Source: Planctomycetia bacterium (GTDB taxonomy: Bacteria; Planctomycetota; Planctomycetia; Pirellulales; Thermoguttaceae). From it: DNA of 64,000 nt. This document shows positions 4,403 to 61,504 of the stretch, one piece after another (position 1 is the stretch's first letter; the number at the start of each line of letters is the position of its first letter). A program made the translations under genes and the position numbers. Where the stretch lies: positions 62,001 through 126,000 of the forward strand of contig JAUNSJ010000009.1 of NCBI GenBank assembly GCA_030539295.1. The letters run 5' to 3'. The notes under the pieces are model-generated. The model searched no databases. It was given only the letters and a program-made list of their open reading frames with translations, and was not told the DNA's origin.

Positions 4403-4537
4403 CTCTCATTTCCGACGAACCAACGGATCGACAGGGATGTTTGGTAATCGCTCCATTCTTTCGCGACCGGGTCATAACTCCGAATGGTTACTGTGAAGAC
4501 GCTGACTGTCCGTTTTTTCCAAGGCACGTCAGGGAGA

Positions 4538-4978: not shown

Positions 4979-5193
4979 GATTCCTTTGTAAATAAACCGC
5001 AATTACCCTAACGTCAAAACAAAGACTTAAGTGGTTCCCTTTGTCCTATCGAAAAAAGGTGAAGAACAACGTGGGTTGTTTGATGCTCTTTGTGGCTTGT
5101 CACCGCGTAGCAGCAACAAGCCAAGGAGGTGTTGAAAAAGAACCGATGTATAACCGCCTTTCTTTTATGCCTGCACCAAGCAACCATTCGTGT

Positions 5194-8220: not shown

Positions 8221-9555
8221 ATGGCCTGTATGAAAATGAATACATTTCGACCTTTCTCCCTTGTATTCCTGTTTGTCTGCCTGTTCGCTCCCGGGCTGTT
8301 CGGGTGTCGGTCGGTATCGAAAGATGGCTATCCTTTTTTAGGTGGGTTGGGCGAGCTGGCCTGGACGGATGAATCGCTGGAAAAAGACTGGAATCGTGCC
8401 CGTGCCTCGGCGAAAAAACGTAAATCTGTCAAAAAAGCCAAGGAGGAGCAGAATCAGCAAATCCTTTCTGCGGTTGACTATAAATTCTATCCAGTCGATT
8501 ATTACTGTTCTTCCGGGTCTCCCTATCGTTTACTCTTTGACGCGCCGCGGCGTGACAATCTTCTCACCGTGCAAGAGGGTCCGGCCCGGTCCGGCCGGTG
8601 TGCCCCGGTCCCGAACGCGTCGAGCGACCCGGAGCTGGAATACTTGCTCTCTGGAATGCAGAGGAGCACAGCGGCCAAGTCCGTCATAGGGCAGGGGGTA
8701 AGTTCCGTTCCCGAGCCGGCTGTGCGCCGTGCCGCAACGGTCATGCCACTGCCAAAGGAATCAGACAATCCGATTCGACAGGTTCAATATATCGATGCGG
8801 TCCGGACCGCCCCGGAGCTTACAAACGTGCCGGCTCAGACCGATAAGAATTGGGAGGAGCAAACGCGTCAGGCGATAGACACTCTGCAAAAAGAGCTGCA
8901 GTCGCGTCAGGCAGACGGTAGTATAACGGCTTCGGAACAGGCGAAATTGCGTCTGCTTCGGCTGACCTTGGGCGAGACGAACGAGGCGACGCCGATTGCC
9001 TGTGAGAATGAGTCGCTCCATCGCTTTTGGGAGGAGCAGTGCTCCGGACTGGCGGCCGTACTGCACGGTAATCTTTTGGACACGCCGGAGAATCCGCAAA
9101 CGGCAGCCACGGCGGCCCAGCATTTTCAGGTCGGACTCGACTCACTCAAGCAGAACTGCCCACTGACGCTGAACAAAAGTCTTATTGTGGAAACGGTCGC
9201 CCCTTTTGGACTCTATGAAGAGAAAAAGGACGCAACCAAGGCAGGAGAACCTATTTACGTCTACGCGGAATTGGAAAACGTCTTTGCAAAAGAGACGTCC
9301 GGCGGCGTTGAAATGGCCGTCTTGTGTCGCTGGGAACTGCTGGATAAGAGCCATCAGGCGGTCATTCCCGCCTGTGAACAGTTATGCCGCAGCCTGACGG
9401 AGAGCCGACTTCGCGACATCGTGCTTAATATTACGGTCGAAACCGAGAGTACACTTGCCCCGGGCGAATACACGCTCGTACTCGCCGTCTCCGACCGCAA
9501 CCATCCGCAGCCGACGACCGTGCAAGCGACGCTCCCGGTTCGAATTACGCCCTGA
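8221..9555 (+). CDS. Predicted lipoprotein of unknown function
   Basis: The protein has 444 residues, or 441 from the ATG at 8230. The N-terminus is a signal sequence with lipobox LFGC, so it is probably an acylated lipoprotein. A basic segment (about 60-80, ARASAKKRKSVKKAKEEQ) follows, then a low-complexity middle part and a C-terminal region of predicted beta strands (about 310-440, for example EPIYVYAELENVF and PGEYTLVLAVSDRNHP). This arrangement recalls planctomycete lipoproteins of unknown role; I recognise no catalytic motif. It runs convergently into the response regulator gene with one base between the stops. Confidence 0.7.
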   Translation: MACMKMNTFRPFSLVFLFVCLFAPGLFGCRSVSKDGYPFLGGLGELAWTDESLEKDWNRARASAKKRKSVKKAKEEQNQQILSAVDYKFYPVDYYCSSGSPYRLLFDAPRRDNLLTVQEGPARSGRCAPVPNASSDPELEYLLSGMQRSTAAKSVIGQGVSSVPEPAVRRAATVMPLPKESDNPIRQVQYIDAVRTAPELTNVPAQTDKNWEEQTRQAIDTLQKELQSRQADGSITASEQAKLRLLRLTLGETNEATPIACENESLHRFWEEQCSGLAAVLHGNLLDTPENPQTAATAAQHFQVGLDSLKQNCPLTLNKSLIVETVAPFGLYEEKKDATKAGEPIYVYAELENVFAKETSGGVEMAVLCRWELLDKSHQAVIPACEQLCRSLTESRLRDIVLNITVETESTLAPGEYTLVLAVSDRNHPQPTTVQATLPVRITP

Positions 9556-9556
9556 C

Positions 9557-10018
9557 CTACTTCTCCTTTTTCGGACCGAAGCTCTCTTCCATTGAGTCAA
9601 TATAGCGGCGGAGACGTTCCAGCTCACTGGAAACACTTCGCAATTTCAGCATGTTTTCGACCCGTTTGAGCAATTCGAACTGATTCACCGGTTTGCTCAA
9701 GTAGTCGTCGCAACCGGCCAGAACAGCGCGCTCTATATCGCCCAGTTCCGACAAAGCCGTAACCATAAGAATCATAGTCTTGGAAATTCCCGGCGTTTCT
9801 TTTATCATCTGGCAGACTTCGAAACCACTCAATTTCGGCATCATAACGTCGAGCAGAATGAGGTCCGGCTGAAAGGATTTAACCTTTTCCAGCGTCTCCA
9901 TACCATCTTTGGCGAAATCAATTTCGTAATCGCATTCCGCAAGGTAGGCTTCCAAAAGTTCCTGATTGAACGTATTGTCATCGGCGATCAGGATGCGAGG
10001 TTTATTTGTTTCGGCCAT
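9557..10018 (-). CDS. Single-domain response regulator (CheY/PleD-type receiver)
   Basis: This 153-residue protein is a receiver domain with a short coiled tail. Acidic pocket residues lie in IADDN, the phospho-acceptor Asp is in LILLDVMMP, the Thr in VTALS and the Lys in YLSKPV. The C-terminal 30 residues are helical and charged. It has no DNA-binding or enzymatic output domain, so it probably signals by protein contact. It is the last gene of a minus-strand operon with a TPR protein and a DEAD-box helicase; no histidine kinase is adjacent. The start has AGGAG 9 nt upstream. Confidence 0.92.
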   Translation of the reverse strand: MAETNKPRILIADDNTFNQELLEAYLAECDYEIDFAKDGMETLEKVKSFQPDLILLDVMMPKLSGFEVCQMIKETPGISKTMILMVTALSELGDIERAVLAGCDDYLSKPVNQFELLKRVENMLKLRSVSSELERLRRYIDSMEESFGPKKEK

Positions 10019-10035
10019 GGTTTGCGTTCTCCTAT

Positions 10036-10392
10036 TTACGACTTCTGCTCGTCCTGTACGCTCTTTAAGTAGGCGGCCAGGCGGGCTTCCTGGGCCTTCA
10101 TGAGTGCCTCTTCCGCCTTGGCGCGGTCGCCGCTTTTTATGGCCATCGCGCTAAAGGCGGTGTAGTAGAACGGATTATCCGTTTCCAGTTCGCAAGCACG
10201 GGCAACGGCAGCCAGAGACTTGTCGTCATTACCGAGTTTATGATACAAGACCGACAGCGCCAGGTGCGCCAAGGCGTAGTTCGGATACGTCTTTGTCAGT
10301 TGTGTAAGTTCCTCGACGGCCTTGTCCAGTTCGCCGTTGTTCTTCAGTTGGATACATTCATCGTACCACTGTTCTTTTGCTCGTTGCGTCAT
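10036..10392 (-). CDS. TPR-repeat protein
   Basis: This 118-residue soluble protein contains about three tetratricopeptide repeats (DECIQLKNNGELDKAVEELT, ALAHLALSVLYHKLGNDDKS, PFYYTAFSAMAIKSGDRAKA), a helical scaffold for protein-protein contact. It lacks a signal peptide. It sits 17 bp before the response regulator and 27 bp after the helicase, so the three are probably co-transcribed. The partner is unknown; the adjacent receiver protein is the obvious candidate. Confidence 0.85.
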   Translation of the reverse strand: MTQRAKEQWYDECIQLKNNGELDKAVEELTQLTKTYPNYALAHLALSVLYHKLGNDDKSLAAVARACELETDNPFYYTAFSAMAIKSGDRAKAEEALMKAQEARLAAYLKSVQDEQKS

Positions 10393-10419
10393 GGTTGTAT
10401 CATCCGTTTCTATCTTGGT

Positions 10420-13005
10420 TTACAGGGCACGTCGGATCCGGCGGACTGATTTGCCGAAGACCGGTTTGACCTGTTTTTCTTCTTCCTCTTCGTGCGATTC
10501 CGGTTTCGTATAGGCTTCGAATCCCGGTAATTCCGTTCGTTTCAATAAGCGATTAATTCGCTTCTCAATGCGCGTCAGTTCCGCGCCTTCCTGCGAGGTG
10601 ACCAAACTATAGGCGACGCCTTCACGGCCCATGCGGCCCGTTCGACCCACCCGGTGCACATAGTCGTCGCAGAACTGCGGAATATCATAATTGATTATAT
10701 GGGAAATTCCGGAAACGTCTATCCCGCGTCCGACCACATCGGTTGCCACGAGAATCGCCACGTTGCCACTGCGGAAATTCTTCATGATCTTGTCACGCTG
10801 GTCCTGCGACAGGTCGCCGTGGATGGCCGCTACGCCGTCGAAAGTCCGCTTGAGGTTCGTGCCGATTCGGTCAACGGCCCGTTTCGTCCGACAGAAAACA
10901 ATCGCCTGTTGCGGTTTTTCACGCTCAAGTAAGGTTATCAACGCCTCAAACTTACGCTCTTTATCGACGGTAAGATAAAATTGTTCAATTGTTTCCGAGG
11001 AAATGTCCTGGGCAGAAAAATCATACTGCTCCGGGTCTCGCATATACCGCTTGGCAAGCTGGACCACCGGGGCCGGAAGCGTCGCGCTGAAGAGCAACGT
11101 TTGACGCTCCGAAGGCGTTTGACGCAGAATCTTCTCAATGTCGGGCCGGAACCCAATATCAAGCATGCGGTCGGCCTCGTCGAGTATAACCCATTGCAGG
11201 GACTGAAACGATAAAGCTCTTCGGGCAACCAGATCAATAATACGTCCGGGCGTACCCACAACAATATCGACGCCGCCGCGTAACTTCTGAATCTGGCTGG
11301 CGATCGGTTTGCCACCATAGCAGGCCGTGACGATAATATCACGTTCACCGACCAGTTTCATCGCCTCGTCACGCACCTGAACTGCAAGTTCTCTCGTGGG
11401 GACAATAATAAGGGCAACCGGATCATTTCCCGGGGGGCAGTCCTCCACTTTTTCCAGGACCGGAATAACGAACGCGGCTGTTTTACCGGTTCCGGTCTTC
11501 GCCTGACCGATCAGATCGACACCGGCCATAACGCGTTGGAAAGTTCCCGCCTGAACCGGGGTCGGATTTTCATACCCCGTTTCATGGAGAATACGCAGCA
11601 TAGGCAGAGAAATGGGCAGCTCACCAAAACTCAAGTGCGACGCCGCTTCGTCGTCTGTCTCATCTGGCGTAACGGAAGCTTGCTCCTGGACTTGAGGTCG
11701 TTTTTGTGGTTCAGGACGCGTGGGGCGTGGGTCAGTCTTTTTCGGCTTCCCAGCGGATCTCGGCGTCTGCTTTTCGCCAGTCTCAAGAGGAATGTCTTTG
11801 GCCGCCACCTTGGTCGGGGCCAGAGGCTCCGTCTTTGCTGGTGCGATTGAACGTTCCGCGACTGGCTCGGGAGCAACGCTCGTCTGCAGCATGTTTTCTT
11901 CAAGATCGGGACCCGGAACGAGAGACGCGGCCTCTTGCCCGGTCACTTTACCCGCGGAGGCCGGCTTAATTTCCAGCAGGGCAAGGCAAAGTCGATAAAG
12001 TAAAAGGCTGGTCGCATCCTTACCGACGTCAAAGATTTCCGCGATTTTTTCCGGGGCGAAGCCTGCGAACCGCAATTTTTTCGTGGCTCGCCATTTTAGG
12101 TCGTGTAGCTTCTTGGCCGAGACGGTCGCAGGCGGTGCCGATTTCTCCACCGCACCTGAATCCACTTCCACGTCGCTCTTGACCACGTGAGTGACCATTT
12201 CCTGACGCTCTTGGCCTGGTTCCGTTGGCGGGAGCGTCTCGACGTCGACTGCCATTTTCTTACGCTCTTGACTCCCTTTTCGCCGCGTCCGGGCTTCGGC
12301 AGAACTGCCCGTGCGAGACGGGGATCCGGGTGATGCCAATGACTCACGCGCTACTGTAACCTTCGCTTGGTCCACAGGTTGCTGCGTTTGATCTGCCACA
12401 CTGCCGCCCCGCTTCCGATTGGCCTGCTTGCGTCCGCGACTCTTTTCAACGGACTTGACCTCGACCTCATCGGTCCCATTTGCCGTGCTCACGCTCTTCT
12501 CACGTGGCAGCTCGTTCCGGCTGCCCGTCTTTTCACTTCGTTTCCCGGAGCGTCCGCGCCGATTCCGCCCGGATTTTTCGAGTTGCTTCGCCGGCTTGAC
12601 CTCGGTCTCTTCCGGCTCATCGTCGAAATCGTCCGGATTAAAGTCGAAGCCCAGGTCATCGTCGTCATCAGGCAGAATGGAGCCGTAACTCGGCAGCGCG
12701 TAGCCGTCGTCGACGTGTTTTTTCGGGGGCAGAAAATCGCGGTCAGGCGAGTCATACTGCTCCGCGACCGTACTGGCCGAGGCACCTTTGCGTCGCCGAT
12801 TCTTCGGCTTCTTAACGGGAACGACGGTTATATCGACCTGCTCGCTATCGTCGTCCACTTCGTCCCACTGAAATCGATTGATAAATCCTTTGCCTGGCAT
12901 CTTTCGCGAGGAGGCTTTTTTACTTCTGCCGGCAGACTGTTTCTTTTCACTTCGTGTTGGCCTGTTGTCGGCCCGTTCCTGATTCTGTGCGTCCAAAATA
13001 TTCAA
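10420..13005 (-). CDS. DEAD-box RNA helicase with a long disordered N-terminal extension
   Basis: The product has 861 residues. The C-terminal 400 are a complete DEAD-box core: AKTGTGKT (motif I), PTRELAVQ, TPGRIID, DEAD (II), SAT (III), ATDVVGRGIDV (V) and HRVGRTGRMG (VI). It should remodel RNA or ribonucleoprotein using ATP. The N-terminal 450 residues are mostly charged, low-complexity sequence rich in Lys, Arg, Glu and Asp, interrupted near 310-355 by a compact helical segment (KWRATKKLRFAGFAPEKIAE). Bacterial DEAD-box proteins usually carry such basic tails at the C-terminus. The start is a TTG (13005, or codon 4) after AAAGGA and is uncertain. It is the first gene of the helicase-TPR-regulator operon. 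Confidence 0.93.
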   Translation of the reverse strand: MNILDAQNQERADNRPTRSEKKQSAGRSKKASSRKMPGKGFINRFQWDEVDDDSEQVDITVVPVKKPKNRRRKGASASTVAEQYDSPDRDFLPPKKHVDDGYALPSYGSILPDDDDDLGFDFNPDDFDDEPEETEVKPAKQLEKSGRNRRGRSGKRSEKTGSRNELPREKSVSTANGTDEVEVKSVEKSRGRKQANRKRGGSVADQTQQPVDQAKVTVARESLASPGSPSRTGSSAEARTRRKGSQERKKMAVDVETLPPTEPGQERQEMVTHVVKSDVEVDSGAVEKSAPPATVSAKKLHDLKWRATKKLRFAGFAPEKIAEIFDVGKDATSLLLYRLCLALLEIKPASAGKVTGQEAASLVPGPDLEENMLQTSVAPEPVAERSIAPAKTEPLAPTKVAAKDIPLETGEKQTPRSAGKPKKTDPRPTRPEPQKRPQVQEQASVTPDETDDEAASHLSFGELPISLPMLRILHETGYENPTPVQAGTFQRVMAGVDLIGQAKTGTGKTAAFVIPVLEKVEDCPPGNDPVALIIVPTRELAVQVRDEAMKLVGERDIIVTACYGGKPIASQIQKLRGGVDIVVGTPGRIIDLVARRALSFQSLQWVILDEADRMLDIGFRPDIEKILRQTPSERQTLLFSATLPAPVVQLAKRYMRDPEQYDFSAQDISSETIEQFYLTVDKERKFEALITLLEREKPQQAIVFCRTKRAVDRIGTNLKRTFDGVAAIHGDLSQDQRDKIMKNFRSGNVAILVATDVVGRGIDVSGISHIINYDIPQFCDDYVHRVGRTGRMGREGVAYSLVTSQEGAELTRIEKRINRLLKRTELPGFEAYTKPESHEEEEEKQVKPVFGKSVRRIRRAL

Positions 13006-14431: not shown

Positions 14432-15697
14432 GTGGGAGTACACCTTTCCGATCCAAACTGCCGTATGCTCGCCGTTATTCTGGCCGGCGGAAAAGGCGAA
14501 CGGCTCGAACCTCTTACCCGGCATCGCGCCAAACCCGCGGTCCCGTTCGGCGGTTCCTATCGCATTATTGATTTTGCACTATCAAATTGTATTAATAGCA
14601 ATATAAAACAAATCCTCCTGCTCACACAGTATAAATCGTACAGTCTTTCGCGGCACCTGTCGCTCGGCTGGACTCATTTCTTCTGCCGGGAACTGAATGA
14701 GTACCTGGACGTCATACCTCCGCAGCAGCGTATTGACGACAGTTGGTATCGCGGAACAGCGGACGCCGTTTATCAGAATATCTATTCGATAGAAAAGCAG
14801 CACCCGCAATACGTCCTCATGCTGGGCGGCGACCATATATATAAGATGAACTATCAATACATGCTTGATTTCCACTTGCGGAATCGTGCGGACGCGACAA
14901 TATCGGTGTTAGAGCTACCGGTCGCGGAAGCGGCAGGGCGGTTCGGAGTGCTGCAAACAGACGGAACCGGTCGCGTACTGGATTTTCAGGAGAAGCCGGC
15001 GCACCCGTACCCTGTGCCAGGGCGTCCGGAGCGATGTTACGCCTCGATGGGCATTTATATATTCAACGCGTCCTTTCTTTTCGAAGAGCTCTGTCGCGAC
15101 GCAACCCGACGTGGCAGTCGTCACGACTTCGGCGGTGACCTGATTCCGCGTTCGCTCAAGACGAGTCGCGTTTTTGCCTTTCCGTTTTCCGGCACGAACG
15201 AGCATGCTTACTGGCGTGACGTCGGGACAATCGACGCCTATTACGCGGCCAATCGCGACCTGATACAGATCAAGCCGGAACTGAATATTTATGACCGGAA
15301 CTGGCCGATCTACACGGCGCACCCGCACTGCCCGCCGCCGAAATTCGTCTTTTCGGAAGATGAACGACGCGGCGTGGCAGTGGAGAGTCTCGTCTGTAGC
15401 GGTTCGATTATTTCCGGCGGCAGTGTTTTTCGGTCCATTCTGGGTCACCGCGTTCGCGTCAATAGCTGGTCCCAGGTCGAGGATTCCATTCTCTTTGCCG
15501 ACGTTGCCATTGGCCGCAACGCCCGCATTCGCCGCGCCATTATAGATAAAGGGGTCGTCATCCCGGCCGGTACGCAAATCGGCTACGACCCCGACGAAGA
15601 CCGACGCCGCGGCTTTCACATTACGGAATCCGGCCTGGTCGTCGTGCCAGCCTTTACGCAACTGGAGTCTGGCGAGAACCGAGAGGACCCGGTCTGA
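14432..15697 (+). CDS. glgC: Glucose-1-phosphate adenylyltransferase
   Basis: This cytosolic enzyme makes ADP-glucose from glucose-1-phosphate and ATP, the committed step of glycogen synthesis. The pyrophosphorylase loop is AVILAGGKGERLEPLT, followed by KPAVPFGGSYRIIDF and DHIYKMNY. The C-terminal third forms a left-handed beta-helix (repeating I-x-x-G hexapeptides such as GSIISGGSVF). Its 421 residues are normal for the family. The start is GTG at 14432, about 11 nt after AAGGAG; ATG at 14465 is a less likely alternative because it would cut into the nucleotide-binding strand. No other glycogen gene is adjacent. Confidence 0.95.
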   Translation: MGVHLSDPNCRMLAVILAGGKGERLEPLTRHRAKPAVPFGGSYRIIDFALSNCINSNIKQILLLTQYKSYSLSRHLSLGWTHFFCRELNEYLDVIPPQQRIDDSWYRGTADAVYQNIYSIEKQHPQYVLMLGGDHIYKMNYQYMLDFHLRNRADATISVLELPVAEAAGRFGVLQTDGTGRVLDFQEKPAHPYPVPGRPERCYASMGIYIFNASFLFEELCRDATRRGSRHDFGGDLIPRSLKTSRVFAFPFSGTNEHAYWRDVGTIDAYYAANRDLIQIKPELNIYDRNWPIYTAHPHCPPPKFVFSEDERRGVAVESLVCSGSIISGGSVFRSILGHRVRVNSWSQVEDSILFADVAIGRNARIRRAIIDKGVVIPAGTQIGYDPDEDRRRGFHITESGLVVVPAFTQLESGENREDPV

Positions 15698-15704
15698 AGC
15701 TCTG

Positions 15705-15730
15705 CGGCGACTGGTTCCTTTCAGTCGCCG
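15705..15730. terminator. Hairpin between glgC and the broken SGNH gene
   Basis: A 9-bp perfect stem CGGCGACTG / CAGTCGCCG with an 8-nt loop lies 8 bp after the glgC stop and overlaps the 3' end of the convergent pseudogene. A weak T-rich run (AACGTTTTCTT) follows on the plus strand. Confidence 0.5.
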
Positions 15731-16124
15731 AACGTTTTCTTAATTTCCGGCTCCATAACCTCGGCCCAGATGCGGTATCCGGCCAGATTCGGGTGCAGAA
15801 AGTCCGGCATAAGCTCCTGTTTTAAGGTCCCGTCGGCATTGAGAAAACGGTCACCGGCAGAAAGGAGCACAACGTTCGGGACCTGGCCGTCGCGTAGAAT
15901 TCGTTCCAGACTTCCAAACCACAAAGTTCAGGAAAGGTCGGATAAGGCTCCCAGCGATGTGTTATGGAATCGCCAACCATAAACAGATCAACATTGCTCT
16001 GTTCCATGCGTTCAACGAACTGATTAAAGCGGCCCGAAGGACAAGCACTCGGCTCCGCGATGATCTGCGCATAACAGGTCGTAATGGCTGCTGTCAAAAC
16101 AGCAAGGCACAAAATAACGTGCAA
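15721..16124 (-). pseudogene. Broken SGNH/GDSL hydrolase
   Basis: Two frames together encode the two ends of an exported SGNH esterase. The first (16124 down to about 15870) has a signal peptide and block I, GDSITHRWEPYPTF. The second (about 15920 to 15721) has the end, with DRFLNADGTLKQELM and the catalytic MPDFLHP. The middle, which should carry the GxxGD and GxNN blocks and about 80 residues, is missing and the frames do not match. An internal deletion with frameshift is the simplest reading. It is related to the second SGNH domain of the 1089-4211 protein. Its promoter (16246-16274) still looks intact. Confidence 0.85.
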
Positions 16125-16245
16125 AAATATTTTTTTATGATAAGTCTCTTTCTGGGCACGTGAACATTAGAGTGACACACATTCAGTAAGCAGACCCGGA
16201 AAAGGTAGCTTCTGAATTCTCACAACAGGTTACAGTATAGTATTC

Positions 16246-16274
16246 ATTATGTAAGGAAGAACGAAGATTGTCAA
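16246..16274 (-). promoter_or_regulatory. Promoter of the broken SGNH gene
   Basis: On the minus strand TTGACA (16269-16274) and CATAAT (16246-16251) are spaced 17 bp apart. The upstream side shares an 18-nt element with the DUF1559 promoter at 20500 (minus-strand match at 16268-16285). Confidence 0.65.
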
Positions 16275-16401
16275 GTAATATTTTTGAAAAAGAGCCGTTT
16301 TTTGGATAAAATTCTTGTTCTTGGCGACAAGGAGAATTTTAAGGCAAAGAGCGGTCCGTTTCAGTATTTTGATGGTGATAAAGGCCCTTCTTTATGGAAA
16401 A

Positions 16402-16434
16402 TTGAAATAATACTAATAGACAGTATTATTTCAA
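16402..16434. promoter_or_regulatory. Perfect 13-bp inverted repeat, candidate regulator operator
   Basis: TTGAAATAATACT and AGTATTATTTCAA flank a 7-bp spacer with no mismatch. The core AATAATACT recurs at the GntR gene's promoter (20666-20674) and as half-sites at two other promoters, so it is a candidate binding site for that regulator. No gene starts immediately beside it now; the gene it served may be the broken SGNH gene or may have been lost. Confidence 0.5.
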
Positions 16435-16702
16435 CTGCAGAAGAGTTCTTAATTAGAGGTAATATCGCACGAACTTTGGCTTTATTTTTCCGCTGACCCT
16501 GTCTCTAAAGTGTCCATCACAACTGGGAAAAGCCTACCAAAGACGAGCTGATGGCCCTCGCTTGACGGAAGCATGCCGTCTGGACGTAATGAGGAATGGA
16601 CAATTTCCGGGCCTCCTGCCTGTTCCATGGGCTTCACATTATCGTGGTTAAATTTTACCTGGAAATTTATGATAGAGCAATAGCGTCTTATTCACTTTCC
16701 AT

Positions 16703-51776: not shown

Positions 51777-53060
51777 CTACCCGGCGTCTTTGCTGTCGAG
51801 ATGGGTCCTTTTTTCTTTGTGGGGGGGCGCAACGTCGGATTCCGGGACGAGGTGCGGCTGCTTGCGGAACTTGCCCGGACGGATACCCGTCTTGCGAACG
51901 AAGGCTTCACTCAAGCGCTGCGGATGATTAAAGCCGCTCTTGATAGCGATTTCCTCAATGCTCAAGTTCGTAGTTCGCAGGAGAATTTTCGCAATTTCAA
52001 TCTTCTCATTAAGAATCTGCTCCAGAACCGTCTTATTCAGTTCGACGCGAAAGAGTCGCTGAAGTTTCGTCGTGGAGAGGTCGACGCACGCGGCAACGTC
52101 CGGAACGGAAATGTCGTACCGAGCGTTTTCCCGTATGAATTCCAATGCCTGTTGTATGACCGGATGCGCCACTTTGTACACCTGCGTCGACGTTCGAACG
52201 GCTATGCCGAGAGGCGGAATATAACGCTCATAATGCCCAAGCTCTTCTCCGTTCATTGCGCGGGCCAGGAGTTCCGCTGCGCGATAGCCGATTTCCTTTG
52301 AGTTCAAAATAACGCCACTTATGGTCGGCGAGACCATTTCACAGGCAATTTCCTCATTATCGCCGGAGATGATGGCCACGACTTCCGGGACGCTTAAATG
52401 CACCGCCTCGGCCTCCTCCAGCAGCTGTATCGCGCGAAAGGAATTACAGGCAAGAATGCCAACCGGCTTCGGCAGCGCGCGAATCCAGGCCTGAATCCGT
52501 GGCCGTTCACGCTCCCATGTACTATTGCGATATTCAAAGCGGTTGTCCACAATGCGGTCGTCGAATCGCAATCCTTTGAAAACACTACACGTGCCGCCAC
52601 TTTCGCGTATTCGGTCGCAAAATCCGCGGCAGCGCTCGTCTGACCAGAGATAACCCTGCTGTCCGATGTACCCGAATTCACTGTAGTCGCGCTCAAGAAG
52701 ATGCTCCGCCGCCATACGCCCGACGGCAACCTGGTCATTATATAATAAGGGCAGGCCCAGCGACGGCACGCGTTCATTCAAATCAATGACCGGAATGCCT
52801 GTCTTGCGGGAAAAATCGTACATCTCCTCCGACGAAATACGCGAGATAATTCCGTCGCCTCGCCAATGCCGCAGCCAAGGCGGAAATTGCCATCGCGAAA
52901 ATTCATAGTCCAAATGGATACGCCAGGGACCATTCTCTTTCGCGTACTGCGTTATTCCCTGGAGCACTTCCCGCCCGTACGCATTGGCCAGCGAGACAAA
53001 GACGGCGACCTTTTTTGCCTGTCGGCCCTTATTTTGACGTGCTTGTGTCGATATGTTCAT
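51777..53060 (-). CDS. XylR-type transcriptional activator (sugar sensor plus AraC domain)
   Basis: This 427-residue regulator has an N-terminal LacI-like sugar-binding fold (about 20-285: VAVFVSLANAYGREVLQGI, VAAIISGDNEEIACEMVSP) and a C-terminal AraC/XylS domain with two helix-turn-helix units (about 305-405: DVAACVDLSTTKLQRLFR, IEEIAIKSGFNHPQRLSEAF). The layout is that of XylR. It is encoded divergently from the sugar operon at 53344. A 38-bp element at 53181 recurs at 58538 upstream of a second operon, so it probably activates both. The inducer is unknown. Confidence 0.88.
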   Translation of the reverse strand: MNISTQARQNKGRQAKKVAVFVSLANAYGREVLQGITQYAKENGPWRIHLDYEFSRWQFPPWLRHWRGDGIISRISSEEMYDFSRKTGIPVIDLNERVPSLGLPLLYNDQVAVGRMAAEHLLERDYSEFGYIGQQGYLWSDERCRGFCDRIRESGGTCSVFKGLRFDDRIVDNRFEYRNSTWERERPRIQAWIRALPKPVGILACNSFRAIQLLEEAEAVHLSVPEVVAIISGDNEEIACEMVSPTISGVILNSKEIGYRAAELLARAMNGEELGHYERYIPPLGIAVRTSTQVYKVAHPVIQQALEFIRENARYDISVPDVAACVDLSTTKLQRLFRVELNKTVLEQILNEKIEIAKILLRTTNLSIEEIAIKSGFNHPQRLSEAFVRKTGIRPGKFRKQPHLVPESDVAPPHKEKRTHLDSKDAG

Positions 53061-53180: not shown

Positions 53181-53218
53181 TGCACAAAACCGGATAAATT
53201 CTATCGAAAACGCGATTG
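53181..53218 (+). promoter_or_regulatory. Shared 38-bp operator, copy 1
   Basis: It contains TGCACAAAACCGGATAAA (53181-53198) identical to 58538-58555, followed by a less strict part including TCGAA and ATTG that runs into the -35 box. The position just upstream of the -35 box is typical for AraC-type activators. Confidence 0.65.
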
Positions 53219-53243
53219 AAAAATCTGCGATTGCGGGTATTAT
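53216..53243 (+). promoter_or_regulatory. Promoter of the sugar-catabolic operon
   Basis: TTGAAA (53216-53221) and TATTAT (53238-53243) are spaced 16 bp apart; the operator abuts the -35 box. Confidence 0.65.
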
Positions 53244-53343
53244 AGAGTCAACGGTGGTGAGAAACGTTTTTTACGCGTCGAAGTAGGACGAGAAGAGGTT
53301 CTGCCGTTGACAAGAAAGTGCGACTATTAAGGAAAAGGAGCGT

Positions 53344-54111
53344 ATGATGCAAGTTTGCTTAAAAGACAAGGTGTGTGTGGTTACCGGGTCGGCCAAGAGT
53401 ATCGGTTACGGGGTTGCCCAGGCGTATTCTGAATCTGGAGCCAAGGTCGTTATGATCGATATTGACCCGGCCGTGATGGACTCTGCTGCCCGGCTTGGTG
53501 CCCGGGGTTATGTCCTCGATATAACGAAGCGAGCGGACGTTTTGAAAGTTTTTTCGGAAATTGCGACGGAAATCGGACCCGTTTATGCTTTGGCGAACGT
53601 TGCCGGCGCGGTGGACCAGGCCCCCTTTACGGAAATTACGGAAGAGGCCATGGACCGTATGATGCGGGTTAATGTAAGCGGGACCCTCTTCTGCTGCCAA
53701 GGGGCCGTTGCCAGTATGCGGACTCTTGGTCAGGGGCGGATCATCAATTTCTCCTCGAAATCGGGCAAGACGGGCTCTGCGCTCATGGCTCACTATTCCG
53801 CGGCCAAAGGAGCTGTTATTGCCTTGACACACGCATTGGCCTTTGAACTTGCAAAAGATAAAATCAACGTGAATTGCCTCTGTCCAGGCATAACCGACGC
53901 GACAGGCGTCTGGAGCGAGGTCAGTAAAGGGTATGTGAAAAACATGCACAAAAGCCGCGAAGAAATTATCGATATCTTTACGGCAAAAATCCCGCTTAAG
54001 CGTTTGACTTCCATTGAGGACGTTGTTGCCTGGGTCCTCTTCCTCACGGAACAGGGCGACTACTGCACTGGCCAAGCCTTTAATATTTCCGGTGGGCGCG
54101 AAGTTCACTGA
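53344..54111 (+). CDS. Short-chain dehydrogenase/reductase
   Basis: This 255-residue NAD(P)-dependent oxidoreductase has nucleotide-binding GSAKSIGYGVA, structural LANVAG, catalytic Ser in NFSSKSG and Tyr-Lys in HYSAAKG, and NCLCPGI. It probably oxidises a sugar alcohol or sugar acid; the substrate cannot be read. The first gene of the sugar operon. Two adjacent ATGs (53344, 53347) follow AAAGGAG; the second has better spacing. Confidence 0.9.
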   Translation: MMQVCLKDKVCVVTGSAKSIGYGVAQAYSESGAKVVMIDIDPAVMDSAARLGARGYVLDITKRADVLKVFSEIATEIGPVYALANVAGAVDQAPFTEITEEAMDRMMRVNVSGTLFCCQGAVASMRTLGQGRIINFSSKSGKTGSALMAHYSAAKGAVIALTHALAFELAKDKINVNCLCPGITDATGVWSEVSKGYVKNMHKSREEIIDIFTAKIPLKRLTSIEDVVAWVLFLTEQGDYCTGQAFNISGGREVH

Positions 54112-54153
54112 TACACGACATTGTAAGATACAAGAAAAGTGAAAAGGTAAAAT

Positions 54154-54822
54154 ATGAAAATAGCACGTTATCTCGACCACGCTGTGCTCAAGCCGGAATT
54201 AACCCGGCAAGAAGCAGAAGAGGCTATAAAACTTGGAATTTCGTACGAGGTGCGGACCGTGTGCGTGCGCCCGTGCGATCTTGAGCTTGCAGTGGCCCTG
54301 TGTCAAGGGACGCAAACGGAAGTTTCCGTCGTTCTGAACTTTCCCCACGGCTGCTCCAGTACCGCGATCAAAGCAGCCGAGGCACGCGACTACTCGCAAA
54401 AGGGAGCCCGTGAACTGGATATGGTCGCCAACTACGGCTGGATTCGGTCCGGACTCTACGACCTGGTGGAGCAGGATATTCGCGCCGTCGTCGAAGCGGC
54501 CCAGCCCTTTAACGTAACGGTCAAAGTTATTCTGGAAACGAGCCAATTGACCCTGGAACAAATAGCACGAGCGACGCAAGCCGCCATTGCCGCCGGCGCC
54601 GCGTTCGTCAAGACCTCAACCGGATTTAACGGACCGGGAGCTACAGAAGAGGCCGTCGACGTCATGCTCAAGACGTCGCAAGGACGAATCAAAGTCAAGC
54701 CGTCCGGAGGAATTCGCGACGCCGCTCGCGCCGCCATGTTCGTCAAAATGGGTGCTGACCGGCTCGGCGTCAACTACACCAGTACGCCGGAAATTTGCAA
54801 GTCGGCCGCCGGTAACCCATAA
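54154..54822 (+). CDS. deoC: Deoxyribose-phosphate aldolase family protein
   Basis: This 222-residue class I aldolase has the Schiff-base Lys in FVKTSTGF, a second Lys in VKPSGGIRD and the VVLNFPHG segment. DeoC reversibly cleaves 2-deoxyribose-5-phosphate to glyceraldehyde-3-phosphate and acetaldehyde. Here it lies among sugar dehydrogenases and an FGGY kinase rather than nucleoside genes, so it may act on another phosphorylated sugar. AAAAGGT precedes the start. Confidence 0.85.
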   Translation: MKIARYLDHAVLKPELTRQEAEEAIKLGISYEVRTVCVRPCDLELAVALCQGTQTEVSVVLNFPHGCSSTAIKAAEARDYSQKGARELDMVANYGWIRSGLYDLVEQDIRAVVEAAQPFNVTVKVILETSQLTLEQIARATQAAIAAGAAFVKTSTGFNGPGATEEAVDVMLKTSQGRIKVKPSGGIRDAARAAMFVKMGADRLGVNYTSTPEICKSAAGNP

Positions 54823-54895
54823 AGGTAACACATAAAATCGATCGAAGAGCCTTTACAAACGATACTAAAAGACAGACCTGTATTTTGCGGAGAGA

Positions 54896-55996
54896 ATGAA
54901 TATGTCAACACTAGTGGAAACCACGACGCGAGTCAGACGGCAACCCCGGGACTTCTCCTGTGGCGATTCCGTTGTTTTTTACGCCCCTCATGACGTTCGT
55001 ATTGAGCCGATGGCTAAGCGTCCCGAGCCGGGAACCGGAGAAGTTCTGGTGCGTGTCGAGGCCTGCGCCATCTGCGGAACCGACGTGAAATCTTACCGCT
55101 TTGGCAACGCGAGAATTCAACCGCCACAAATTATGGGCCATGAATTTTGTGGCACAATTGAAGAATGCGGGCAGGACGTCACGGAATACAGTCCGGGCCA
55201 GCGAGTCGTTATGGCCACAAGTATGGGCTGCGGCTCCTGCTTCTATTGCAAGAGCGGGCACAGTAATATCTGTCCTGAAATCGAAGCGATGGGCTTTCAT
55301 TATCCAGGCGGGATGGCCCCGTGGCTCATTATTCCGGCCAAAGGAGTGCGGCAGCGGCATTTAGTGGACGTCGGCGACTTGAATCCGGTCGTTGCCGCCC
55401 TTGCCGAACCGATGTCTTGTGTTATAAATAATGTTACCAGGCCGCCGCGGGACGAGGTTCATACCGCGCTCGTACTCGGACTCGGTCCGCTCGGATTCCT
55501 GCATGCCATTTGCTTACGCGAACGCGGGGTTGAGTCCATTGTGTGTGTTGAGTTTCCCGGACGTCGGTTTGAGCTGGCTCAGGCGATGGGCTTTCAGGTC
55601 ATAACGCCAGAGGAACTGGAACGCTCCTGGCAGCAGCGGTCGGGCAATCGCGGTTTCGATTTCGTTATTGTCACCGCGCCAAGCAACGCGATTCAGGGAA
55701 CGGCTCCGAAGTACGCGAGGAAACGCGGCTACGTCTCCTGGTTCGCGTCACTGCCCGCCGGCGACGAAATGCTGACCGTCAACAGTCGCACGGTGCACTA
55801 TGGAGAGCTGACCGTCTACGGCACCAGCGATTCCACACCGGAGCATGTACGTCAAGCGGTTGACATTTTGCGACAGGGCCAGAACGATTTCCGTAAAATC
55901 GTGACGCACGTCCTGCCCATGAGTCAGTTTGAATTTGCGCTCGACGAAATAAAAAATGGCGCCGCAGTTAAGATTGTTCTGGTTCCGGAAAACTGA
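54896..55996 (+). CDS. Zinc-dependent medium-chain dehydrogenase
   Basis: This protein of 364-366 residues belongs to the sorbitol/threonine/alcohol dehydrogenase family. Catalytic zinc ligands are in ACAICGTD and GHEFCGT; structural zinc cysteines are in GCGSCFYCKSGHSNIC; the NAD fold shows VLGLGPLGFLHA. It probably oxidises a polyol or ketose in the operon's pathway. The ATG at 54902 has better spacing to GGAG than the one at 54896. Confidence 0.9.
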   Translation: MNMSTLVETTTRVRRQPRDFSCGDSVVFYAPHDVRIEPMAKRPEPGTGEVLVRVEACAICGTDVKSYRFGNARIQPPQIMGHEFCGTIEECGQDVTEYSPGQRVVMATSMGCGSCFYCKSGHSNICPEIEAMGFHYPGGMAPWLIIPAKGVRQRHLVDVGDLNPVVAALAEPMSCVINNVTRPPRDEVHTALVLGLGPLGFLHAICLRERGVESIVCVEFPGRRFELAQAMGFQVITPEELERSWQQRSGNRGFDFVIVTAPSNAIQGTAPKYARKRGYVSWFASLPAGDEMLTVNSRTVHYGELTVYGTSDSTPEHVRQAVDILRQGQNDFRKIVTHVLPMSQFEFALDEIKNGAAVKIVLVPEN

Positions 55997-56090
55997 TTCG
56001 GGCATGGTTTTCCGGTATACAGACGAAGGATTATTATCGCTCCATAAATTTAAATTTTCAACGCGGTACGAAATAGAGAGAGGTTAACCG

Positions 56091-57620
56091 ATGAAATATC
56101 TGCTTGGAATCGATTGCGGTTCAACGATCGTTAAAGCGGCTTTATTCGACGAGAACGGGCATGAAATCTCGGTCGTCGGAGAGAAGATACCTCATCTTTA
56201 CCCTCATTCGGGCTGGACGGAAAACGACCCGGAAAAACTCTGGCAGAGTGTCCTGACACTCCTGTCCCGACTCCTGCGTGAGACAGGAATCGACCCGGGA
56301 CAGATTGCCGCTCTTGCCTGTACCGGATATGGAAACGGACTGTATCTGACCGACGCCAAGGGAACGCCCGTGCGGAATGGAATCATCTCGTCGGACCTGC
56401 GTGCCCGGGATTATGTCCAGCAATGGCTCAATGACGGGACGCTCGACGCCCTACGCCCGAAAACCTTGCAAGCGACCTGGCCCGCCCAGCCCAACGCTCT
56501 GCTCCGTTTCCTCCTCGACCATGAGCCAGAAAGTGTACAGCGTGCCCGTTGGTTCTTTACCTGTAAGGATTATATTCGTTTTCGGCTGACCGGGCACCCC
56601 TGCTGGGAACTCTCCGACGCTACCGGATGCAATATGGTAAACGTAACCACCGGGGAATACGACGATGCGATTTTTCACGCCTGGGGCCTGGAACAGGTGC
56701 GTGATCTTTTTCCGCCGTTGTGCCATTCGCTGGACCTGTGCGGCACAATTACCGACGAGGTTGCCAAGGCGACCGGGCTTCTCGCGGGTACGCCCGTTGC
56801 CGCCGGTATGTTCGATATCGACGCCTGTTCCCTCGCCGCTGGTATGACCGACCCGTCTTGCCTGTGCATGGTCAGTGGCACTTGGGGCAATAATCTTTCC
56901 CTTACACAAGATCCACGCCCCGACAGCGATATTTTCATGACCAGTCGCTACGCGCTGGACGGCTATTATCTTTTGCTTGAAGGCAGTCCGACCTCGGCCA
57001 GTAATTTCGACTGGTTCGCCACACGCTTCCTGGCACGCCGTGCCCCGCAGGCGTATCAGGGTGAAAGTGACGAAACCGCATGGCGTGACACGCAATTTGC
57101 GGAATGTCTGCGTGAAATTGCCGCCGTTTCCCCACGTGAGGATGCCCCCATTTTTTTGCCGTACCTCTTTGGCGGTCCGGTCGACCTCGATGCCCGTGGC
57201 GTCCTCTTCGGACTCGATGGTCGTCATGAGCAGGGCGATATCCTCCGTGCCGTCCTCGAAGGGATCGTCTTCGGGCACCACTGGCACGTCGATCGCTTGT
57301 GCCGCGTGCGGAATCGCCCGGTCGTCATTCGCCTGACCGGCGGGGCAACGCGAAGTCCGCTCTGGACGCAAATGTTCGCCGATGTTTTCCAGACGCCGGT
57401 AGAAATTCCGACCGGGACCGAACTGGGCGTTCTCGGCGCGGCTATTGGCGCCGCTGCTGCGGTGGGCCTGTATCCATCATTAACCGATGCGGTTCAGTCC
57501 ATGGTTCGCGTCGACCGTGTCTGTCAGCCGAATTCGGAACTGGCCGAACTTTACGCCCGAAAATACCGCCGGTTCCGGAAGTTGCTCGACGTCCTCGCCG
57601 GGCACTGGACGCTGGATTAG
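56091..57620 (+). CDS. FGGY-family carbohydrate kinase (LyxK-like)
   Basis: This 509-residue sugar kinase begins LGIDCGSTIVKAALFDENG (phosphate-1 loop), has TGYGNGLYLTDAKGTPVRNG, then VSGTWGNN (second loop) and GGATRSPLWTQMF (adenosine site). Within FGGY kinases it most resembles L-xylulokinase types, but its substrate is not certain. It would phosphorylate the ketose made by the dehydrogenases for later cleavage. GAGAGG precedes the start. Confidence 0.9.
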   Translation: MKYLLGIDCGSTIVKAALFDENGHEISVVGEKIPHLYPHSGWTENDPEKLWQSVLTLLSRLLRETGIDPGQIAALACTGYGNGLYLTDAKGTPVRNGIISSDLRARDYVQQWLNDGTLDALRPKTLQATWPAQPNALLRFLLDHEPESVQRARWFFTCKDYIRFRLTGHPCWELSDATGCNMVNVTTGEYDDAIFHAWGLEQVRDLFPPLCHSLDLCGTITDEVAKATGLLAGTPVAAGMFDIDACSLAAGMTDPSCLCMVSGTWGNNLSLTQDPRPDSDIFMTSRYALDGYYLLLEGSPTSASNFDWFATRFLARRAPQAYQGESDETAWRDTQFAECLREIAAVSPREDAPIFLPYLFGGPVDLDARGVLFGLDGRHEQGDILRAVLEGIVFGHHWHVDRLCRVRNRPVVIRLTGGATRSPLWTQMFADVFQTPVEIPTGTELGVLGAAIGAAAAVGLYPSLTDAVQSMVRVDRVCQPNSELAELYARKYRRFRKLLDVLAGHWTLD

Positions 57621-57737
57621 ACCACCCTGTCAGGCATATTGTTAAAAATACAAGAAAACAGTAAGCCTGTTGTGTGACCGTTCGAATAAATAACTTGCAA
57701 AAATAGCAAATGCAATAAAAAGGTAAAAGGAATTTTT

Positions 57738-58499
57738 ATGGACCTGTTCCTCAAGGACAAAACTGTTCTGGTCACCGGCGCCGCCAAGGGACTCGGTGCC
57801 GCTATTGCCACATTGCTGGCCCAGGAAGGTGCCCGGGTCGTTATCAATTATTCGTCCAGTCGTGAGGCCGCCGCGTCGCTCTCACACCAGTTGACCGACC
57901 AGTACGGAGTCCGCACACTTGCCCTGCAAGCCGACGTTTCCAACGAAGCCGAGGTCATTTCCATGTTCGATGCCGTGGAGGCGGAATTCGGCCCGGTCGA
58001 CGCTCTGGTCAATAACGCCGCGTACTGTGCCAATCCCTGTTGCGTTGATTTGGACCTGGCCGAATTTCAGAAGACGCTGGCCGTAAACTTACAGGGAACC
58101 TTTCTCGCCAGCCGCGAATTCTGCCGACGCGCTTTGCGTGATAAGCGGACCGGGAACATCGTCAATATTTCCAGTCAGGCAGCGCTCCGCGGATCGCAAA
58201 GTGGGAAAACAGCCTACGACATGACAAAAGCGGGCATCGTCGGGTTTACCCGCTCTCTTTCGCTCGAAATGGCCCCCCACTGCATTCTCGTCAATTGCGT
58301 CCTGCCCGGCCTTATGTACACCGACATCCTCGCCCGTCAGATCGCCGCCGACCCCGACCGCTACAACAAACGTTCCCCCCTGGGCCGAATTGGTCGCTGC
58401 GAAGAGATTGCCCAAGTTGCCGTCTTTCTCTGCTCCAGCCGAGCAAGCTATATGAGCGGCGCCTCGGTCGACGTCTCCGGCGGCCTGGCCTTGCACTGA
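57738..58499 (+). CDS. Short-chain dehydrogenase/reductase
   Basis: This 253-residue NAD(P)-dependent enzyme has TGAAKGLGAAIA for nucleotide binding, NNAAY, catalytic Ser in NISSQAA and Tyr/Lys in YDMTK, and NCVLPGL. It is only moderately similar to the SDR at 53344, so the operon has two distinct oxidation steps or substrates. It is the last gene before the second promoter at 58573. Confidence 0.9.
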   Translation: MDLFLKDKTVLVTGAAKGLGAAIATLLAQEGARVVINYSSSREAAASLSHQLTDQYGVRTLALQADVSNEAEVISMFDAVEAEFGPVDALVNNAAYCANPCCVDLDLAEFQKTLAVNLQGTFLASREFCRRALRDKRTGNIVNISSQAALRGSQSGKTAYDMTKAGIVGFTRSLSLEMAPHCILVNCVLPGLMYTDILARQIAADPDRYNKRSPLGRIGRCEEIAQVAVFLCSSRASYMSGASVDVSGGLALH

Positions 58500-58537
58500 C
58501 ATAGAATTCGCTCACGCTGGATGAGGGATTCTTTGTC

Positions 58538-58575
58538 TGCACAAAACCGGATAAAGTTTGTCGAATTCATGATTG
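58538..58575 (+). promoter_or_regulatory. Shared 38-bp operator, copy 2
   Basis: It repeats the 53181-53218 element (first 18 bases identical, about 31 of 38 overall) immediately upstream of the next -35 box. It connects this operon to the XylR-type regulator. Confidence 0.65.
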
Positions 58576-58600
58576 CATTACAAAAATGTTTGTGTATAAT
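58573..58600 (+). promoter_or_regulatory. Promoter of the DUF1559-oxidoreductase operon
   Basis: TTGCAT (58573-58578) and TATAAT (58595-58600) are spaced 16 bp apart, the same spacing as at 53216-53243. Confidence 0.65.
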
Positions 58601-58743
58601 AATGGTATCAAGCTTGAATTGATCAGGCTTAGATACTGACAAACCGTTACCTTGCGTGTTTTTTCACTCGTTTCGTCTTGATACTCCGAGAGAAAGTTCA
58701 AGACCAAAACCATCACCATCACCTTATGAGAAGGAGACGTAGC

Positions 58744-59895
58744 ATGAAAGTAGAACGTATCATTGTCGATTTGTTAAAACGGGGGGGGGGCAGCCCGGAC
58801 AATTTAGCGAAAAGCCTCTCTTTTTCGGTGTCCCGCATAAAAAATCGTCGTCGGGGCTTTACTCTTGTCGAACTTTTGGTCGTGATTGCCATAATAGGCA
58901 TTCTGATTGCCCTTCTTTTGCCGGCAGTTCAGGCAGCACGCGAAGCGGCCAAGCGAATGCAATGCACAAGCAACTTAAAAAATCTTGTCCTTGCCGTACA
59001 CAACTATCGCGACACCAACTTCATGAATATTCCCGCTGGTTTGGTTCCAGACAGTCAGCCAGTCTCTGTTTGTACCCCTTCCTGGTATTGGCGTATACTT
59101 CCCTTCGTGGAGCAGTCGGCGCTTTACGAAGGATTTGTATCTCGCACATGTGACATGAGTGTGACCGGCCATACCGGTCCCTGGTACAGTCGGATTGATT
59201 GCCCGATCTATGATAATAAGGAGAGTCCTTATACAACGGCAAACGTCTCAATTTTTACATGTCCAAGTCGTGAATATCAATTTAAGGAACACGCGACGGA
59301 TATTGATTACAATCGGTCTATGGGCTGCTATGTTGTCAACCTGGGACCGACGAGTTACGGTCGTATCAATCTGCACCTGGCATACCCCGGCAATTACAGT
59401 ACAAAGCCGTGGTATCAGCCCCACGAACCGCCTTTTCGATTGAGCCTGGCGCCAACATCTCCCACCTCAACGACCATAAAGTATGACGATAAATTGGCGT
59501 TCGTCGACTTTAACGCCATAACCGACGGGTTAAGCAATACGGTCTTTATGTCTGAAGTCACGCCAGCTCGCGACGCGTCCGGTTCCTATGGCGATATTAT
59601 GATGGTGGTCGGCTGTGGCTTCAGTGCCCGATTTACTCCCAATAGCGACGGAGCAGGAACGAAAGATGATCTTTTTTCCATCTTTAACGCCGAGACAGTG
59701 GGTGTGAACCGAAAAGCTGCCTGTAATTTAATTAGCAATTTCGACAATAACAAAGCCAGGGTGCGGAGTTATCATCCAGGAGGTGTCAACGCCGCTTTGG
59801 GAGACGGATCCGTTCGCTTCGTTTCCGATACAATTGCCGAAAATGTGTGGGCCTATGCCTGTGGCGGGGCTGATGGTCAAAATGTCGAGCTGTAG
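58744..59895 (+). CDS. DUF1559 prepilin-like protein with poly-G tract, in frame (ON)
   Basis: This 383-residue protein has a leader containing KRGGGS, the pilin-type signal [32 protein letters not shown] and a closing [20 protein letters not shown]. The ATG at 58744 follows AAGGAG by 7 nt and is in frame with the domain at the present 10 G; the TTG-initiated extension to 58678 is not needed. One G more or fewer would break the frame. It is followed by a close paralog at 59984, and the pair seems to be a tandem duplication. Confidence 0.9.
58781..58790 (+). repeat. Poly-G tract of 10 bases in the DUF1559 leader
   Basis: It lies 12 codons after the start, encoding part of RGGGS. It is equivalent in position to the tracts at 45493 and 49603. 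Confidence 0.9.
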
Positions 59896-59983: not shown

Positions 59984-61024
59984 ATGAAAAGAAGAGGATT
60001 TGGATTTACCCTTGTGGAGCTGCTCGTGGTCATTGCAATTATTGGTATTTTAATTGCTTTGCTCCTGCCGGCCGTACAGGCGGCGCGAGAGGCGGCTCGC
60101 CGGGCACAGTGTACCAACAACTTGAAGAATCTCGTTCTGGCGATTCACAATTATCGGGATGCCAATACGAAGAATCTGCCTGGTGGCCTGTCACATAGTG
60201 TCTGGTTACCCTCCTGGTATTGGCGTATTATGCCTTACGTGGAACAAAACGCGCTCTACGACTCCTTTCTCACCAGAACTTGTGATGAGTCCATTAGTGG
60301 TCATTCGGGCCCTTGGTACAGTCATGTAAATTGCCCAGTCAATGACGATAAAGAAAGTGAATCGGCTACTGCAGAAGTTTCCATTTTTACCTGTCCGTCC
60401 CGACAATACCAAAAGAAAGAGAATGCCTCGGATAATGATTACAGCAGAGCCATGGGATGTTACGCCGTTAATATAGGTCCGACGAACTACGGGCAATGGA
60501 ATCTGTACGCGGCATTTACTTCTTATGCCGGCAAGCCGTGGTTTAATCCGAAGACACCACCATTCAATATTGGAATGGGATTAAAAGCGGGAACAACGTC
60601 CGAGACGGTAGTGCGGGACCGACTCGCCTTTATGGACTTTAGTGCCATCCTGGATGGTCTGTCCAATACAGTTTTTATGTCAGAAGTGACTCCTGCAAGC
60701 GACGGCAGTGGCAGTTATGCTGATATCCAGTTGGTTTTCGGTTGTGGCTTCAGTGGACGATTTACCCCTAATAGTGACGGCACGGGAAGTAAAGACGATC
60801 TTTTCGCCAAATATAACGACAACACGGTAGGTAGAGGCGGTAAGGGGCTTTCCAACGACACAATTGGGCTTGAAAACAACAAAGCGCGAGCAAGAAGTTT
60901 TCATTCCGGAGGGGTAAACGCTGCCATGGGTGACGGGTCCGTTCGTTTCGTTTCCGATACAATCGCCGAAAATATTTGGGCTTATGCCTGTAGCGGCGAT
61001 GATGGTGTTACAGTTCAGTTTTAA
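59984..61024 (+). CDS. DUF1559 prepilin-like protein, short leader
   Basis: This 346-residue protein starts [14 protein letters not shown], so the pilin signal lies almost at the N-terminus. [18 protein letters not shown] and the closing [20 protein letters not shown] are typical. It is a close paralog of the preceding gene (shared [14 protein letters not shown]-like segments and [17 protein letters not shown]). It has no poly-G tract. GAGGAG precedes the ATG. Confidence 0.92.
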
Positions 61025-61087
61025 AACAGGTATTTGTAGTGAGATTAAAATAAAAAATTTAAATTAAAAGAAGAAGGATTTGGTTTG

Positions 61088-61504
61088 ATGAAAACATCTG
61101 TTGCTTTGTTGGCTTGCATTCTCTTAACCATTGCCGGTTGCGGCGGTAGCGGCCTTTCGGTGGGCGGCGCCGTCTCCTACGACGGTAAACCTGTGGATAA
61201 CGGTAGTATCGGATTCGTCGCGGCTGGCGGCGGAACTACTTATGGCGCCGATATAAAGGGTGGTAAATGGAATAGAAAACTTCCTCCCGGTTCCTATGAC
61301 GTTTCCATCGTCGACAATACAAAAAAACAGCTTGATAAGCCCTATGTTAACGATATAGGACAAACGGTGGAAACGGAAACAGTAACCACCATCCCTGATT
61401 GTTACAATGTGAATAGCACGCTGAAAGTTGATATCGAACCCGGGAAGAAGGTCTATGATTTCTTATTGGCGGTGCCTGATAACACGGAGAATGTTGTTGA
61501 ATAA
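61088..61504 (+). CDS. Transthyretin-like lipoprotein
   Basis: This 138-residue lipoprotein has lipobox TIAGC and the pattern GGAVSYDGKPVDNGSIGFVA then PGSYDVSIVD. It fills the same operon slot as the lipoproteins at 17244, 44395 and 48447. AAGGA precedes the ATG; an upstream TTG is not used here. Confidence 0.8.
   Translation: MKTSVALLACILLTIAGCGGSGLSVGGAVSYDGKPVDNGSIGFVAAGGGTTYGADIKGGKWNRKLPPGSYDVSIVDNTKKQLDKPYVNDIGQTVETETVTTIPDCYNVNSTLKVDIEPGKKVYDFLLAVPDNTENVVE

Follow-up and report, generated by a model that had tools for sequence, protein, structure and literature searches.

A single AraC/XylR-type regulator, most likely the protein encoded at 51777-53060, probably operates a regulon of four promoters, with DUF1559 surface modules among its targets; judged from sequence, we put the probability of this reading at roughly 0.77. 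The first-pass annotation had predicted one regulon joining a sugar operon and a DUF1559/oxidoreductase operon, and this prediction is supported by the rarity of the shared element, its placement at promoters and its geometry, as well as by the adjacent full-length XylR homologue and by recurrence at independent paralogous loci; it is extended here from two promoters to four. The window, that is, the whole 64,000-nucleotide stretch that was analysed, corresponds to C58:62001-126000 of the genome, and positions given without a contig refer to it.

The repeated element and its promoters

The 18-mer TGCACAAAACCGGATAAA occurs exactly, and on the same (+) strand, at 53181-53198 (copy A) and 58538-58555 (copy B), and these are its only copies in the window at up to three mismatches, against 0.06 expected in shuffles. 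The identity originally reported at 53181 and 58538 is thus exact for the 18-mer and amounts to 31/38 positions over the full 38 bp, the second box being looser than the first; in both copies, as described at the time, the looser part meets a -35 box followed by a 16-bp spacer. The genome search named in the first-pass annotation was run over all 88 contigs (4.13 Mb) and returned four exact copies of the 16-bp core, rather than a scatter over many unrelated loci, where 0.0018 (about 0.002) would be expected by base composition. Besides A and B, these are copy C at C58:126946, 946 bp past the window end, and copy D, on the minus strand of another contig (C11:36947-36964), with one mismatch in the 18-mer; all four are oriented into a promoter, ahead of a -35/-10 pair. 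A profile of the four 64-bp promoters gave four genome matches at E<1e-12 and a next best match at only E 0.09, the informative point being the empty gap behind the four, since the profile was built from those same promoters. Weaker copies in the same genome (C31:175453 with two mismatches, others with three) were dismissed because they lack a second box or promoter and because a reversed control also yields three matches.

In copy A, the outer half-site is followed on the same strand by an inner half-site, ATCGAAAACGCGATTGA (53203-53219), an imperfect direct repeat at a 21-bp pitch (9/17 matches at lag 21, equalled at lag 22) that overlaps by 4 bp the -35 box of promoter A (53216-53243, +; TTGAAA at 53216-53221, a 16-bp spacer, and TATTAT at 53238-53243). 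Copy B repeats this layout, with the inner half-site GTCGAATTCATGATTGC at 58560-58576 (+; 7/17 matches, 21-bp pitch, 4-bp overlap) and promoter B at 58573-58600 (+), consisting of TTGCAT (58573-58578), a 16-bp spacer and TATAAT (58595-58600). Across copies A-C, the best lag between outer and inner box is 21 bp (22/51 positions matching), and in each copy the 17 bp of the inner box reach 4 bp into the -35, giving same-direction half-sites within a pitch of 21-22 bp. The alignment of all four copies has as its invariant parts, in order, GCACAAAACCGGATAAA, TCGAA, G.TTG where the -35 begins, and parts of the -10. Copy D differs in register, its -35 lying 3 bp further off and its best internal lag being 24-25; it is probably a member of the regulon, and the least certain of the four.

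The adjacent regulator and related loci

Copy A lies inside the divergent intergenic region between the sugar operon and a gene on the minus strand at 51777-53060, which encodes the regulator proposed to bind the element. The description of this neighbour as XylR-type was well founded, the gene encoding a full-length XylR homologue: the N-terminal sensor matches PBP1_XylR (PF22177, 28.4 bits against a cut-off of 27) and Peripla_BP_3 (PF13377, 96 bits), the C-terminal AraC-type helix-turn-helix DNA-binding domain matches PF12833 (63 bits) and PF00165 (30 bits), and the match to the E. coli XylR structures 4fe4/4fe7 runs over the full length (E 1.4e-41). In relatives, the closest regulator (48% identity, in G046) has in its gene row a zinc dehydrogenase with 46% identity to the operon A enzyme and an SGL protein with 27% identity to its operon D counterpart. 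Near the homologues of about 40% identity in G042 and G036 are FAD oxidoreductases that share about 33% identity with the operon B enzyme. By this route, which is independent of the operator, the regulator lineage is linked, as far as gene content indicates, to the kinds of gene found behind A, B and D. The element itself was never found as an exact 16-mer in 99 relatives, its one-mismatch matches being about as frequent as in the reversed control, and in G046 matches at up to three mismatches were at background (50 vs 40); the G046 promoter is missing because the contig breaks off within the first gene. A regulator orthologue is absent from three sister species, which, together with the lack of an exact element in any relative, accounts for the missing cross-species footprint.

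The same geometry is found upstream of other regulators of this type. Of 44 lags examined over 110 regions upstream of XylR-type regulators, taken from this genome and its relatives, 21 and 22 stand out, with z values of 7.2 and 5.6, respectively, against dinucleotide shuffles; lag 21, being a multiple of 3, gains somewhat from coding sequence (z is 4.7 at lag 18), while lag 22 is not so affected, and the lag-21 value was reached at any lag by 0/200 shuffles. At locus C79, where an XylR-type gene is divergent from a DUF1559 gene, the promoter carries a tandem of GCGTAAAATTACAAAA, GCGTAAGATTACAAAA and GCGCAACTTTACAAGT at a 22-bp pitch and, a further 21 bp along, a degenerate fourth half-site sharing 4 bp with TTGACA. 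At C76, where the gene divergent from the XylR-type gene is again a DUF1559 gene, the operator recurs at a second DUF1559 gene 3 kb further along; both DUF1559 promoters contain GTCGGAAAACCAGAGGAATAA, with a related half-site 22 bp upstream and TTGACA 35 bp away, and C76 is a predicted second small regulon of the same design. This locus was found by a scan of 14 loci, in which the one other exact repeat, at C13 (L074:13118/14991), was rejected as an operator, being an extended duplicated stretch instead. No convincing copy of the C79 and C17 operators was found elsewhere in the genome beyond their own loci; an operator distributed over four promoters is thus not typical.

The assignment of the 51777-53060 protein to the element rests on adjacency, among about 48 XylR-like regulators. 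It is conceivable, if unlikely, that the operator is of the AraC/XylR type and is bound by another of these proteins, the neighbouring gene controlling something else: the genome holds 48 PF13377 regulators above the cut-off, and a C-terminal AraC-type domain is present in 25 of the 30 tested (none was detectable by tblastn in the other five); several HTH paralogues are 37-39% identical; and the C76 operator resembles the element (AAAACC..GGA.TAA). Against this, copy A falls within the intergenic region from which the regulator gene itself diverges, where a local AraC/XylR operator is usually found, and at both C76 and C79 the operators adjoin their own regulators.

Genes behind the four promoters

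Operon A, all on the plus strand, encodes an SDR dehydrogenase (53344-54111) whose closest model is L-iditol 2-dehydrogenase, below cut-off; a DeoC aldolase (54154-54822), above the TIGR00126 cut-off and the sole enzyme of the operon to pass an equivalog cut-off; a zinc-dependent polyol/sugar dehydrogenase (54896-55996) and a second SDR dehydrogenase (57738-58499); and an FGGY carbohydrate kinase (56091-57620) that is xylulokinase-like and below the equivalog cut-off (236.6 bits against 380 for XylB). The operon contains no xylose isomerase or transporter, and has DeoC and three dehydrogenases instead. Searches of solved structures for its enzymes did not settle the substrate. The 'defined sugar pathway' of the first-pass annotation is too strong a term, since its enzymes can be classed clearly but no substrate could be assigned.

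Operon B, also on the plus strand, begins with two DUF1559 pseudopilin-like proteins. The first is placed at 58744-59895, where an ATG behind GGAG is a more likely start than the TTG at 58678 from which the reading frame is listed; the frame 58678-59895 matches PF07596 (141 bits), N_methyl (38 bits) and TIGR04294 (41 bits), in line with its N-methylation motif and H-X9-DG. The second (59984-61024), 65% identical to the first, likewise has PF07596, a prepilin N-terminus and H-X9-DG. They are followed by a small lipoprotein-like protein (61085-61504), with an LTIAGC lipobox recognized by eye and no Pfam match, and by a 1092-aa FAD-dependent oxidoreductase (PF12831) that runs from 61538 to the window end at 64000 and continues to 64816 in window numbering; it has a signal-like N-terminus and is probably secreted. 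Operon C encodes a DUF1559 protein, a lipoprotein-like protein and a 478-aa FAD oxidoreductase, and the downstream genes of B and C are paralogous. PF12831 oxidoreductases number six full-length and one split in the genome, two of them in the four-promoter set; another, at C83, comes after a DUF1559 gene in the order seen in B and C. Operon D encodes a lipoprotein with an SGL (gluconolactonase-like) region, a PEMT-type methyltransferase, a 989-aa protein with no Pfam, NCBIfam or PDB match, and a BD-FAE/PaeX-like esterase. Immediately upstream of D, in the same orientation, is a DUF1559 gene.

A reading of the repeats as mere leftovers of gene conversion or promoter duplication along the contig, with no shared regulation, is quite improbable. 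Copies B and C, besides their paralogous downstream genes, have in common a 22-bp upstream extension, GCTGGATGAGGGATTCTTTGTC (58516-58537, +, in copy B), which is present in these two copies only and nowhere else in the genome, which makes it probable that one of the two promoters is a copy of the other. Copy A, in contrast, shares only the element with B and C and none of their flanks, copy D is on another contig, and conservation ends at the operator and promoter boxes. The least probable alternative, binding by another class of protein (a repressor or an accessory activator), could draw on the weak similarity of the inner half-site (6-9/17 matches) beside a far better conserved outer 18-mer, but a lag and dyad comparison of A-C found no strong dyad symmetry of the kind typical of LacI-type or TetR-type sites, and the same-direction 21-bp pitch with its 4-bp overlap of the -35 fits the class of the adjacent regulator, tandem half-sites recurring at C76 and C79.

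Under the preferred reading, the element would be the operator of a sugar-sensing activator of the AraC/XylR type, most likely the 51777-53060 protein, a dimer of which would sit on a pair of half-sites facing the same way, the outer (GCACAAAACCGGATAAA) strong, the inner weak and reaching 4 bp into the -35. With its ligand present, presumably a sugar or polyol, the regulator would recruit RNA polymerase; binding of the element by this particular protein, activation and the nature of the ligand are all predicted. One switch would in this way serve four promoters: A for the intracellular sugar/polyol operon, B and C for the DUF1559 operons, whose products would be DUF1559 pseudopilin-like proteins, a small lipoprotein and a secreted FAD oxidoreductase, and D for the lactonase-like/esterase operon. 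The same substrate may be the extracytoplasmic target of the B-D products, and it is plausible that the secreted oxidoreductases and the lactonase act on an extracytoplasmic sugar whose breakdown operon A completes inside.

Reach of the design and comparison with known systems

Planctomycetes have, to our knowledge, few protein families larger than DUF1559, for which no role is agreed. The shared operator offers a regulatory clue, in that at least some members of the family are probably co-expressed with a sugar-breakdown pathway and with secreted redox enzymes. In this genome, which has 153 DUF1559 matches and whose DUF1559 content and prepilin types point to a planctomycete, a DUF1559 gene lies within 2 kb of 25 of the 48 PF13377 regulators, against a mean of 9.3 and a maximum of 19 in 2000 random trials, a placement test that used the 150 listed DUF1559 matches and approximated contig ends by the last feature. 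A family-wide adjacency was rejected, as only 2/29 loci in relatives had a DUF1559 gene within 1.5 kb, vs 1/18 control loci; given its rarity in relatives, the coupling characterizes this lineage rather than the family at large. A wider, tentative and rather doubtful proposal is that DUF1559 proteins are substrate-specific surface parts, many of them under an XylR-type sugar sensor of their own. If it were true, the operator sets ahead of DUF1559 genes would reveal the carbon source that each surface module serves; the anatomy of C76 and C79 and the 25/48 adjacency suggest that many modules could be assigned to substrates via their operators, and the purpose of DUF1559 becomes a testable question.

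Among known systems, E. coli XylR, the activator of the xylose operon (4fe4, 4fe7), has the same full-length domain order, a PBP1_XylR sensor followed by an AraC-type HTH, and a local operator with same-direction half-sites near the -35; it differs in that operon A lacks a xylose isomerase and transporter and has a kinase that is only xylulokinase-like and below cut-off, and in that the targets proposed here include DUF1559 modules and secreted oxidoreductases. The I1-I2 site of AraC has two half-sites at a spacing of 21-22 bp, placed immediately before the -35 or extending into it. In MtlR, two 15-bp blocks at -72/-58 and -50/-36, 22 bp apart, lie upstream of the -35 (PMC4514859). Copies A-C are like both in half-site pitch and in placement at the -35 and differ from them in half-site sequence; the sensor domain of the 51777-53060 regulator is periplasmic-binding-like, unlike that of AraC. 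The XylRA regulon of a xylan-degrading Vibrio has a motif of two direct repeats at several promoters, covering xylanases and xylose metabolism (PMC12125979), and so shares with the set proposed here an XylR homologue acting through one two-direct-repeat motif at several promoters; its extracellular part consists of xylanases, whereas here it would consist of DUF1559 pseudopilins, lipoproteins and FAD oxidoreductases. As to the DUF1559 proteins, Rhodopirellula baltica has 74 DUF1559/SBP_bac_10 (PF07596) proteins, some of which change under stress (PMC2754498), and the PF07596 domain, prepilin N-methylation motif and H-X9-DG C-terminus of the pseudopilin-like DUF1559 proteins of Planctomycetes are also present in both genes of operon B. 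A limited literature search found no DUF1559 gene tied to a specific sugar regulator or operator. In summary, the type of regulon is known already, as the XylR regulon, and the inclusion of DUF1559 modules in such regulons is, as far as we looked within this limited literature, new.

Regulator and DUF1559 pairs across the genome

Across its 4.1 Mb, the source genome (G000) has 153 matches to DUF1559 and encodes roughly 48 regulators of the XylR-like type; genes of the two kinds are frequently neighbours, an adjacency that is not seen in this frequency in relatives. On contig C76 (locus L075, C76:22000-41000), two DUF1559 genes 3 kb apart are each preceded by an identical tandem operator, GTCGGAAAACCAGAGGAATAA (positions 9922 and 12879), and one of them is divergent from a XylR-type regulator; this is a predicted second small XylR/DUF1559 regulon. 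On contig C79, where a DUF1559 gene and a XylR-type regulator are transcribed divergently, the stretch separating them holds four tandem half-sites with a pitch of 22/22/21 bp, the last overlapping TTGACA (locus L201, C79:33000-43000, positions 4908-4990), and upstream of another XylR-type regulator (C17:160217-160254) there is a perfect 16-bp direct repeat, TGACGCAAATTGTATA, with a 22-bp pitch and restricted to its own locus.

Relatives and surroundings of the operator-bearing operons

The row of DUF1559, 195-aa protein and FAD oxidoreductase genes on contig C83 (locus L203, C83:92000-107000, positions 8931-12116) matches the gene order of operons B and C; a XylR-type regulator lies about 6 kb ahead of it, and no copy of the operator shared by copies A-D was found at this locus. 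A FRG-domain protein gene (locus L011, positions 15551-16468) is convergent to operon C, facing it at the operon's end. In operon D, the 989-aa protein (locus L012, C11:30000-46000, positions 1542-4511) begins with a signal-like segment and matches nothing in Pfam, NCBIfam or PDB, though parts of it resemble a glycoside hydrolase barrel on visual inspection.

The stretch upstream of copies B and C

Among the operator copies, only B and C are immediately preceded by the 22-bp stretch GCTGGATSAGGGATTCTTTGTC (window 58516-58537 and C58:126924-126945, respectively), which is perhaps a duplication remnant or an additional site.
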